48,433 nt of DNA from a virus, in IMG/VR virus record IMGVR_UViG_3300025012_000137, positions 1-48,433 of that record. One strand, given 5' to 3'. Below, in pieces: positions 18,687 through 23,531 of the stretch (its first letter is position 1; each line of letters opens with the position of its first letter). Below the pieces are notes generated by a model. It was given only the letters and a program-made list of their open reading frames with translations, did no database searches and was not told the origin of the DNA. The translations under genes were made by a program, and so were the position numbers.

Positions 18687-18892
18687 CATGGTCAAACGGA
18701 AAACATGCTTTTTACGGCAAAAGAAATGATCGCGCCAGACGAAGCCGATCCAAAATCATCAAGGGAATTAAAAACATCGCCCGGATTGAGGATTTCAAGA
18801 AAATAGAAGCGGAGTTGAGGAGTGGTACCTCACAAGTCTCAAACTCGTATACGCAGGTTCGAATCCTGCCTCCGCGACTGAAAACAATCTAA
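18683..18892 (+). CDS. Small basic protein whose end reads through a tRNA-like element
   Basis: 69 residues. The first 45 are basic (KHAFYGKRNDRARRSRSKII). The last 25 (SYTQVRILPPRL) are the typical accidental translation of a tRNA T-arm and acceptor. The frame may be real up to the tRNA-like element or may be chance. It is coupled to the preceding peptide by ATGA. Confidence 0.35.
   Translation: MTWSNGKHAFYGKRNDRARRSRSKIIKGIKNIARIEDFKKIEAELRSGTSQVSNSYTQVRILPPRLKTI
18809..18876 (+). tRNA. tRNA-like element, isotype unclear
   Basis: Acceptor GCGGAG (18809-18814) pairs with CTCCGC (18870-18875). A D-arm GAGG-AGTGGTA-CCTC and an intact T-arm GCAGG-TTCGAAT-CCTGC (18853-18869) are clear. The anticodon arm is poor: the best fold, ACAAG/CTCGT, has one mismatch, a TCTCAAA loop with C instead of U33 and no clear position 26, so no anticodon is safe. 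The encoded 3' end is GACTG, not CCA. It is either a degenerate tRNA, a tRNA mimic or the remnant of an attachment site. Confidence 0.5.
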
Positions 18893-19732: not shown

Positions 19733-20437
19733 ATGAAAAAAACACGCTGGAAATTTCTCTACTTGAAGGATGGTAAAATTAAGTCCGCACATGGTGAATG
19801 CGAATGGAAAATAGGAGAAAGAAAAAAAGAGGACAAGGTGGATTTATGTGATTCAGGCTTTCATTGTTCCAAGAAGATATACGAAGCTTTTTCTTATATA
19901 CAGGGCGAGATTTTGGCTAAGGTTGAGGTCGGTGGTAAGTGCGAGATAGGAGATGACAAAGAGTGTTATACGGAGATGACAATTATTGAGACTTACAAGT
20001 GGACAAAAAAGGATAGCGTAGCGTTGTCGATTTATGCCGCAGAATTAGTGCTGGATAATTACGAAAAACAATATCCAGGAGACCCAAGGCCGAGAGAAGC
20101 AATTGAAGCGGCAAAAAAAGTATTAGAAAACGACACGGAAGCAAATAGGTCCGCCGCCTGGTCCGCCGCCAGGTCCGCCTGGTCCGCCGCCAGGTCCGCC
20201 GAGTCCGCCTGGTCCGCCGCCTGGTCCGCCGCCAGGTCCGCCTGGTCCGCCGCCTGGTCCGCCGCCTGGTCCGCCGAGTCCGCCAGGTCCGCCGCCTGTT
20301 CCGCCGAGTCCGCCAGGTCCGCCGCCTGTTCCGCCGAGTCCGCCAGGTCCGCCGCCTGTTCCGCCGAGTCCGCCGTTATCAAAAAAATAGATAAGTGGAT
20401 GAATAATAGAATTAAAGAGCTTGAAACATATGAATAA
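19733..20437 (+). CDS. Protein with globular N-terminus and Ser-Ala-x repeat domain
   Basis: 234 residues. Residues 1-110 form a compact domain (WKFLYLKDGKIKSAHGECEW; DLCDSGFHCSKKIYEAFSYI) of a kind common in phage proteins of unknown function, with a G-x-x-W and G-F-H-C/A-S core. Residues about 138-215 are tandem S-A-W, S-A-A-R and S-A-E units. The last 20 are a charged helix. The repeat should form an alanine-rich helix or rod. Function unknown. It is the first gene after a strong promoter. Confidence 0.7.
   Translation: MKKTRWKFLYLKDGKIKSAHGECEWKIGERKKEDKVDLCDSGFHCSKKIYEAFSYIQGEILAKVEVGGKCEIGDDKECYTEMTIIETYKWTKKDSVALSIYAAELVLDNYEKQYPGDPRPREAIEAAKKVLENDTEANRSAAWSAARSAWSAARSAESAWSAAWSAARSAWSAAWSAAWSAESARSAACSAESARSAACSAESARSAACSAESAVIKKIDKWMNNRIKELETYE
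20144..20376 (+). repeat. GTCCGCC-based tandem DNA repeat inside a gene
   Basis: Repeated words of the type GGTCCGCCGCC and GAGTCCGCC run for about 230 bases; the last part is three near-perfect 33-base copies. It is GC-rich against an A/T-rich background. The antisense frames give Gly/Pro and Asp/Ala repeats that are not genes. The reading frame is maintained in units of three, so the number of units can change without breaking the gene. Confidence 0.85.
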
Positions 20438-20620: not shown

Positions 20621-21187
20621 ATGGACAACAAAAGCAACAGCGGATACCGCAACAGCGGAGACTACAACAGCGGAGACTACAACAGCGGATACCGCAACAG
20701 CGGATACCGCAACAGCGGATACTACAACAGCGGAGACTACAACAGCGGATACTACAACAGCGGAGACTACAACAGCGGAATTTTCAACACAAACGAGCCT
20801 AAAATGAGAGCTTTCGGGAAAGAAGCCGAAATGACTTTTTCAGAATGGAGACATAGCGATGATTATATCATCTTCGATATTCCTCTCAACACCTATGTTT
20901 TTTATTCAGATATGACAGACGAAGAAAAAAAGGAGCACGATTACGCTAAAACCACAGGAGGTTATCTAAAAACCTTAGAATATAAAGAAGCCTGGGCTAA
21001 GTGGTGGGAAGAAAACAAGTCTGAGGAGATGAAGAAGAAAATAAAGAAACTTCCAAACTTCGACAAAAATATATTTGAGGAAATCACAGGCATTAAAATC
21101 GACGCCCAAGAAAAGGTTGAAATCTCGATGGACGAAATAGCAGAGAAATTCGGAGTTGATGTCAAGAGCTTGAAGATTAAGAAATAA
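20621..21187 (+). CDS. Pentapeptide-type (NSGxY) repeat protein with globular C-terminus
   Basis: 188 residues. Residues 6-53 are about ten copies of a five-residue unit N-S-G-Y/D-Y/R (GYRNS GDYNS), which could form a short right-handed beta solenoid like pentapeptide repeats. The C-terminal domain begins MRAFGKEAEMTFSEWRHSDDY and is helical and charged. Pentapeptide proteins can mimic DNA, but ten units is short for that. It has the leader AATAATATG with no Shine-Dalgarno site. Confidence 0.65.
   Translation: MDNKSNSGYRNSGDYNSGDYNSGYRNSGYRNSGYYNSGDYNSGYYNSGDYNSGIFNTNEPKMRAFGKEAEMTFSEWRHSDDYIIFDIPLNTYVFYSDMTDEEKKEHDYAKTTGGYLKTLEYKEAWAKWWEENKSEEMKKKIKKLPNFDKNIFEEITGIKIDAQEKVEISMDEIAEKFGVDVKSLKIKK
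20633..20780 (+). repeat. 15-base tandem repeat coding NSGxY
   Basis: About ten copies of AACAGCGGANACTAC-like units in one frame. Units differ only at the variable third and fourth residues, which suggests recent expansion. Confidence 0.8.
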
Positions 21188-21721: not shown

Positions 21722-22141
21722 ATGCCGAAGAGCTTAATGCTGAAAGGACTTCCCGGTTCTGGAAAAACAACCCACGCCAAAGAACTGGTCAAACAGGGAT
21801 TCAAAAGAATAAATAACGATGATCTTCGGGATATGATAGATGGAGGGAAATTTTCCCACAAAAATGAACTTATCATATCTGAAATCAGGGAGGCGATGGT
21901 CGGGATTTTCATGGAGCACGGTTGTGACATAGTGGTGGACAATTGCAACTTCAATCCGATTCATAAAATTGATATGTGCCTGCAGGCGGAGCTTCACAAC
22001 GACACAAACAAAACAAAATATGAAGTCGAAGAAAAATTAATAGACATTCCATTGGAAGAATGTATACGAAGGGACTCGCTTAGGGATCGCAAGGTTGGAG
22101 AAAAAGTAATAAAAGACATGTATGAAAGATATTTAAAATAA
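21722..22141 (+). CDS. Polynucleotide 5'-kinase (P-loop)
   Basis: 139 residues. Walker A GLPGSGKTT (9-17), then RINNDDLRDMI, then VVDNCNFNPIH, then RRDSLRDRKVGEKVIKDMYE. This order matches the kinase domain of T4 Pnkp and its relatives: R-V-N-x-D-D-L-R, D-x-x-N-x-N-P-x-x, R-R-D...V-G-x-x-V-I-x-x-M. It phosphorylates 5'-OH ends of RNA or DNA. No phosphatase domain is attached; that activity may come from the adjacent fusion protein 7 bp downstream. Together they form an RNA-repair unit (inference). Confidence 0.85.
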   Translation: MPKSLMLKGLPGSGKTTHAKELVKQGFKRINNDDLRDMIDGGKFSHKNELIISEIREAMVGIFMEHGCDIVVDNCNFNPIHKIDMCLQAELHNDTNKTKYEVEEKLIDIPLEECIRRDSLRDRKVGEKVIKDMYERYLK

Positions 22142-22148
22142 AAATCGT

Positions 22149-23531
22149 ATGCCACAAGTGTTTTTGGTTTCTGATACGCACTTCAATCATTCTCGTATCA
22201 GGGAATACGAAAAGGCTCCGGAAAACAGGGACGAAATGATCATGCGGAATTGGCAGCAAGTCGTGAAACCCAAGGATCTGGTAATCCATTTGGGAGACGT
22301 CATTTTTGGAGGGTCCAAGAGATTAGCAGAAGTCGTGTCACAACTCCCGGGAAGAAAAATTCTAGTGCTCGGAAATCACGACAATAAATCTCCTCAGTGG
22401 TACATGGACCATGGATTCGACTTCGCCTGCTACGAATTTAAGTGGAAGGAATTCGTTTTTACCCACAAACCCAAGCAGAACATAGGAGACAAAATAAACA
22501 TTCATGGGCATTTCCACGAGACTCTCTCCCATCATAGCGATGAATATCCATGGTATAGCGAAAATCACAAGCTCGTTTCCCTTAAAGAAAATAATTATTA
22601 TCCAATAAATTTAAATGAAATGAAAACCGAAGACAAAGTGCAGTCTGGGTTCAAAGTATACCCCAAGATCCACAGGCTAGGCAAAGAAGAAACAGAGGGT
22701 ATATTGGACGGAGTTTGCTACATTCAAGAAAAGATAGATGGGGCAAACACTTCAATTTGGATCGAGGATGGCGAGATAAAATGCGCCAGCCGAAACCAAC
22801 CAATAACCTCCGGGTTCAATGGGTTCATCGATTATGTCAAATCACACGAAGGCATAATTAAATTTCTTACTAAGCGTCCAGAACATAGGCTATATGGAGA
22901 ATGGCTTGTGCGCCACAGTATTTCCTACAACGAAACAGCTTACAAAAAGTTCTATCTGTTTGACGTCATGGTCGGGGATGAATTTCAGTCGATAGATAAG
23001 GTGTATGAAATAGCTGAAAAATATGGGATCGAAACACCTAAACTTTTCTCAGTCATTAAAAACCCCACGGTTGATGATATCCGGCCCTTTGTCGGCCAGA
23101 GTGTGCTAGGAGAATCTGGTGAAGGTATAGTGATAAAGAATTTCTCCTTCCTAAATAATTTTGCAAGGCGTGAATACGCCAAATGGGTGACCGAAAAATT
23201 TAAGGAGGATAACGCGATAATTTTCGGAGGCAACAATAAGCATTCTGATACGTACTGGGAAATGTGGATTACTAATACATATTGCACCCTAGAAAGAGTG
23301 CAGAAGATAATGCACAAAATAGAACCTACTTTGGACGAAAAATTAGACATGAAGCATATCCCTCGCATAACTAGCACCGTTTATCACGACATTTTGACCG
23401 AGGAGATATGGAGCATAGCTAAAAAAGTCAAGGAGATCAAATTCGAATCACTCAAGAGATGCATAATGAAAAAAACCAAACAGATTTATGTGGATCTACT
23501 AACTAATAATTTAAGCGTTGCAGACCTATGA
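22149..23531 (+). CDS. Metallophosphoesterase - Rnl2-type RNA ligase fusion
   Basis: 460 residues. Residues 1-150 are a calcineurin-like phosphoesterase with DTH (9-11), GD (49-50), GNHD (75-78), H106 and GHFH (120-123). Residues about 165-460 are a nucleotidyltransferase ligase with motif I EKIDGAN (adenylated Lys195), CASRN, LYGEW (248-252), FYLFDV, EGIVIK (325-330) and motif V YAKWV (343-347). The order kinase gene, phosphoesterase, ligase repeats that of bacterial Pnkp in split form. The likely role is healing and sealing cut tRNA or other RNA. The phosphoesterase subfamily looks like phage YfcE-type, so its end-healing role is inference. Ends overlap DUF3310. Confidence 0.85.
   Translation: MPQVFLVSDTHFNHSRIREYEKAPENRDEMIMRNWQQVVKPKDLVIHLGDVIFGGSKRLAEVVSQLPGRKILVLGNHDNKSPQWYMDHGFDFACYEFKWKEFVFTHKPKQNIGDKINIHGHFHETLSHHSDEYPWYSENHKLVSLKENNYYPINLNEMKTEDKVQSGFKVYPKIHRLGKEETEGILDGVCYIQEKIDGANTSIWIEDGEIKCASRNQPITSGFNGFIDYVKSHEGIIKFLTKRPEHRLYGEWLVRHSISYNETAYKKFYLFDVMVGDEFQSIDKVYEIAEKYGIETPKLFSVIKNPTVDDIRPFVGQSVLGESGEGIVIKNFSFLNNFARREYAKWVTEKFKEDNAIIFGGNNKHSDTYWEMWITNTYCTLERVQKIMHKIEPTLDEKLDMKHIPRITSTVYHDILTEEIWSIAKKVKEIKFESLKRCIMKKTKQIYVDLLTNNLSVADL

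Follow-up and report, generated by a model that had tools for sequence, protein, structure and literature searches.

A kinase and a metallophosphoesterase-ligase fusion in a virus record: a probable phage cassette for RNA end-healing and sealing

Results and Discussion

The 48,433-base virus record analysed here (the window, i.e., the whole stretch of DNA) carries on its plus strand a kinase gene followed by one gene for a metallophosphoesterase (MPE) joined to a ligase. The three enzymes are all detected by profile search far above chance. We interpret this pair of genes, with a probability of about two in three, as a phage RNA end-healing and sealing cassette in which an MPE has replaced the HAD phosphatase before being fused to the ligase. 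The starting ends would be those of broken RNA, i.e., a 5'-OH and a 2',3'-cyclic phosphate or 3'-phosphate. The stand-alone T4-type kinase would phosphorylate the 5' end, the MPE domain would clear the 3' end to OH (a predicted activity) and the fused Rnl2-like domain would seal the healed ends. In nearly all close relatives the kinase carries a fused HAD 3'-phosphatase; the MPE would replace it and, since the MPE is joined to the ligase, 3' healing and sealing would be combined in one chain. The substrate is probably cut tRNA, and a role against a host RNA-cutting defence is plausible.

Organization and setting of the cassette

The kinase gene (21722-22141, +) encodes 139 aa, contains a kinase domain only and has its own stop. 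It is separated by 7 nt (22142-22148) from the MPE-ligase ORF (22149-23531, +; 460 aa), which has no internal stop. The first-pass annotation had described a kinase gene followed after 7 nt by one MPE-ligase protein; its coordinates are exact and the frame is open throughout. The neighbours of the cassette identified by profile searches are recombination genes, i.e., a RecB-like nuclease and NinG. RlaP was not found in the window, and no Hen1 was found among the proteins scanned (small ORFs were scanned in part only).

Two repeat proteins are encoded upstream of the cassette: one with WSAA-type repeats after a DUF7666 part (19733-20437, +), the other with pentapeptide-like repeats of the NSGYR/NSGDY type (20621-21187, +). 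At 18808-18878 (+), Rfam matches a tRNA gene (42 bits) whose anticodon, UCA, reads opal. Recoding of TGA in the whole phage was ruled out, 12 of the 50 listed genes ending in TGA. Among 14 window genes, most start sites are preceded by an AT-rich leader, e.g., TTAATAAATATG, and a clear Shine-Dalgarno motif is absent. AT-rich leaders of this kind, without Shine-Dalgarno motif, are seen in Bacteroidota.

Kinase

The first protein (21722-22141, +) is a P-loop 5'-polynucleotide kinase of the T4-Pnkp type, with Walker A at residues 9-17 (21746-21772). It matches the polynucleotide kinase family phrog_505 (E 2.5e-25) and Pfam AAA_33 (E 1.3e-11). Its residues K15, T16, D33, R36 and R121 align with K15, S16, D35, R38 and R126 of T4 Pnkp, which we take to be residues with catalytic roles. 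The kinase half of a T4-type Pnkp is thus present with its catalytic residues, and the C-terminal HAD phosphatase is missing: the alignment stops exactly where the HAD phosphatase starts in the relatives.

Metallophosphoesterase domain

Residues 1 to about 157-158 of the fusion (22149-22619, +) form a calcineurin-like MPE domain. The metal-binding set is complete (DTH 9-11, GD 49-50, GNHD 75-78, H106 and GHFH 120-123) and its columns are invariant in 17 relatives. Residues 1-160 match the phosphoesterase family phrog_547 (E 1.4e-35) and PF12850 (E 4.2e-8); the model match and the complete metal motifs place the domain among the phage calcineurin-like phosphoesterases of phrog_547. Its AlphaFold2 model is confident (pLDDT 90.8). 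The best fold match, and nearest solved structure, is Aquifex aq_1665 (1xm7, E 5.6e-11), followed by the MPE of a P. putida nuclease. A «YfcE type», as proposed earlier for this domain, holds loosely only, since the TIGR00040 score is 24.8 bits for a cut-off of 56.25. No activity of this MPE subfamily is known to us. It must be specified that the MPE and ligase models are models of single domains and not of the whole chain: the two domains were folded apart because the joint alignment of the fusion, the ligases and the MPEs misaligned the MPE rows.

Ligase domain

Residues from about 165 to 460 (22641-23531, +) form an Rnl2-like, ATP-dependent RNA ligase with a helical C-terminal domain. Its motifs are motif I (K195-IDG), SRN 214-216, GEW 250-252, YLFD 269-272, motif IV (EGIVIK 325-330) and, for motif V, the first lysine (K345). 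At the position of the second motif-V lysine in T4 Rnl2, the window ligase has V347. This column is Val in 21 of 21 aligned rows; the substitution thus characterises the clade rather than reflecting the decay of a single gene. Residues 168-451 match the RNA ligase family phrog_548 (E 1.5e-39) and PF09414 (E 6.7e-24). The AlphaFold2 model is confident (pLDDT 88.8), with a helical C-terminal part. The best PDB fold is full-length T4 Rnl2 (E 8.9e-14), RNA ligases being ahead of DNA ligases, and HHalign against T4 Rnl2 gives an E of 1.1e-10. A BFVD fold search with the ligase domain returned mostly ordinary RNA ligases in its top rows. The Rnl2-like character proposed in the first-pass annotation is therefore upheld by profile, fold, nucleotidyltransferase motifs and helical C-terminal domain. 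The NCBIfam equivalog TIGR02307 scores 18.8 bits for a cut-off of 197; the window ligase is thus related to this equivalog without being a member of it.

In another locus (L009, 5005-6669), an RNA ligase is interrupted directly behind its GEWL motif by an intein-like insert (CLSGDTVI...VHNC) that includes an HNH-like segment.

Probable exchange of HAD for MPE in the ligase clade

Phylogenetic analysis of 99 ligases groups those of the window (G000), L047 (record G001) and L010 (record G002) in one clade with a support of 95/85. The kinases of these three records all end where the HAD phosphatase should begin, while the surrounding ligase relatives come with a kinase-HAD protein. Among the 31 whole records searched, a strong MPE score was obtained in these three only, and HAD was found neither in the window nor in G002 by whole-record search. 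In G002, the MPE shares 61% identity with the window MPE, and its gene and the 3' end of that of the kinase overlap; the ligase is a separate gene, upstream of both. The case of G001 is different. Its MPE belongs to another subclade than the window MPE, and a stand-alone HAD phosphatase (G001:C1:62193-62594) is encoded in this phage whose kinase lacks HAD, i.e., a T4-type Pnkp come apart into two genes. Two records thus show a clean replacement of HAD, and a single one shows the fusion. The three records have few other genes in common, so the cassette occurs in otherwise divergent phages.

In two related loci (L070 and L072, records G025 and G027), several TGA codons lie in frame within kinase and HAD and are read through, which suggests that these are TGA-recoded phages.

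Recurrence of kinase-only genes with MPE

Kinase-only genes with an MPE are also found beyond the window clade, in other phage lineages. L270 (G051) has ligase, kinase and MPE in tandem; the kinase is of the kinase-only form, no HAD was found in the record and the ligase, which carries a PHA02142 OB-fold domain, is of another type than that of the window. In G032 a ligase is followed by an MPE, the kinase-only gene is distant and no HAD was found. G049, a fragment of 23.5 kb, combines a kinase-only gene with an MPE and has no matching ligase.

An MPE is present in 6 of the 8 kinase-only records and in 3 of the 30 kinase-HAD records (Fisher p 7e-4, or 0.006 when the window clade is taken as one); the count was made by hand, with a weak MPE match in G023 counted as absent and the class of G052 uncertain, and these p-values are guides only since the records are related, many are fragments and they depend on the G023 and G052 calls. 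The kinase-only records without MPE are G048 (a short fragment) and G050, and three kinase-HAD records have both MPE and HAD. A strict rule, i.e., MPE if and only if HAD is absent, is ruled out by these exceptions in both directions.

It must be noticed that another end-healing combination is found in L138 (2510-5477), where a kinase-HD protein, an RlaP-like protein and an MPE are encoded in one cluster.

Junction of the fusion

The junction covers residues 158-166 (22620-22646, +). Translation of a stand-alone ligase of ~303 aa could begin here, at an in-frame ATG (22620). Out-of-frame stops are present at the natural end of the MPE (TGA at 22616, TAA at 22606 and 22612). Owing to these stops and to the in-frame ATG, a one-base indel would be enough to give back two genes: the fused state and two ordinary overlapping genes differ by a single small indel, whether real or erroneous. 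In-frame homology reaches within ~10 residues of the junction on both sides, that on the MPE side including the L010 MPE.

A second fused MPE-ligase was not found among the matches listed in the IMG/VR fusion, MPE, ligase and kinase scans, a search for the junction pattern gave no second record with an MPE-ligase junction, and no place in the phages collection covers 80% of the MPE-ligase query. A match of SPbetaL1 over residues 1-323 was considered as a second fusion and rejected: it consists of an MPE gene and then a gene without ligase match. Among the papers listed by literature searches, none was recognised as describing an MPE-RNA ligase fusion, a mention in Burroughs and Aravind 2016 being possible.

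Alternative explanations

The fusion may be an artefact of assembly or sequencing, the real phage having separate, overlapping MPE and ligase genes. The form is known from one record and one assembly and is the sole fused MPE-ligase among the ~400 loci listed; the junction has no second record, and the out-of-frame stops and in-frame ATG mean that a single-base error suffices. Against this, the frame is open and homologous up to ~10 residues from the junction on either side, and we consider an artefact improbable. Moreover, the three-enzyme cassette and the loss of HAD do not depend on the fusion. A second alternative concerns the function: the MPE would be PdeM/Mre11-like, acting on DNA as a nuclease or phosphatase, and the fusion would serve DNA break processing and nick sealing in phage recombination. 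The P. putida nuclease MPE as second-best structure and a PdeM model match of 38.7 bits point in that direction, as do the RecB-like exonuclease and NinG adjoining the cassette and the replication clusters in which MPE relatives occur. However, the PdeM cut-off (150 bits) is far above this score, the ligase fold is nearest to T4 Rnl2 and other RNA ligases with DNA ligases behind, the partner kinase is of the T4 end-healing type, and RlaP, an RNA-repair nucleotidyltransferase, accompanies several related cassettes. A DNA role thus appears rather unlikely, and RNA repair is the best reading because the kinase and the ligase are of the T4 healing and sealing types and RlaP is found near related cassettes. 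Most members of the window MPE clade are nevertheless in records without matching kinase or ligase, and in two annotated phage records (Troll and a Zobellviridae phage) MPE relatives lie among replication genes; the role assigned to the MPE is therefore drawn from its company and from the fusion.

As to descent, separate profile matches establish that kinase, phosphoesterase and ligase are all present in the order of bacterial Pnkp, as noted in the first-pass annotation. This identical order of activities is what favours a split descendant of bacterial Pnkp (kinase-MPE-ligase), an origin that the other data largely refute and that we regard as hardly credible: (i) the bacterial Pnkp model TIGR04075 has no match at E 0.1 with either window protein, and the Pnkp-type ligase domain PF16542 is not among the ligase matches, PF09414 being found instead; (ii) T4 Pnk is the best PDB match of the kinase profile (89 bits, vs. 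51 bits for the C. thermocellum Pnkp kinase); (iii) the ligase clade is one of stand-alone phage ligases, most of the nearest having a full kinase-HAD Pnkp gene downstream, and the HAD parts of the relatives match PDB Pnkp1 and T4 Pnkp; (iv) the order differs in L010, where the ligase is upstream. The first-pass annotation had envisaged both a bacterial Pnkp split in two and an assembly independent of it; the T4-type kinase, the unmatched TIGR04075 and the sister cassettes made of ligase and kinase-HAD speak against the former and for the latter. The best reading of these sequences is that the cassette would derive from a T4-like two-protein system, which would have lost its HAD phosphatase and acquired an MPE.

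A broader proposition, which we advance tentatively, is a phage-specific form of RNA repair in which an MPE repeatedly replaced HAD and in which a new MPE-Rnl2 enzyme, uniting 3' healing with sealing, converges on the Pnkp order from different parts.

Comparison with known systems

These results suggest that phage RNA-repair systems can exchange their phosphatase as a module. HAD, stand-alone MPE and fused MPE each occur in related cassettes, which constitute a natural experiment: different 3' ends for MPE and HAD are now testable, and might fit the differing RNA-cutting defences of the hosts. The MPE-ligase fusion could also serve as a single-chain reagent for RNA healing and joining.

The window has in common with T4 (Pnkp with Rnl1 and Rnl2) a T4-type kinase and an Rnl2-like ligase. 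The cassette of MW202692 is close, its ligase being 53% identical to that of the window, with RlaP before and kinase-HAD after. Unlike both, the window has no HAD phosphatase and has a calcineurin-like MPE fused to the ligase instead. According to the accessible part of Iyer et al. 2021 (PMC7824862), kinase-HAD is the usual phage form, and calcineurin-like domains appear to supply the phosphatase in a few jumbo phages. This calcineurin-like stand-in for HAD is shared with the window, but an MPE-ligase fusion is not found in that part of the text. L270 resembles the window in its kinase-only gene, MPE, ligase and absence of HAD; however, it is unfused and has another ligase type.

Among bacterial systems, Pnkp (C. 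thermocellum type, TIGR04075, with Hen1 as partner) has the same order of kinase, metallophosphoesterase and ligase, whereas the window has two chains, the kinase being a separate gene, and other kinase and ligase families. The Pnkp1-Rnl-Hen1 system has, as the window, a T4-type kinase and a separate Rnl, but Pnkp1 keeps the HAD that the window lacks. The phosphatases of Pnkp and Pnkp1 belong to two different superfamilies (PMC4411300, accessible part), and the same portion of that source describes no MPE-Rnl fusion for Pnkp1-Rnl-Hen1. Each enzyme of the window is thus of a known kind, and the joined MPE-ligase form is found in one record only.
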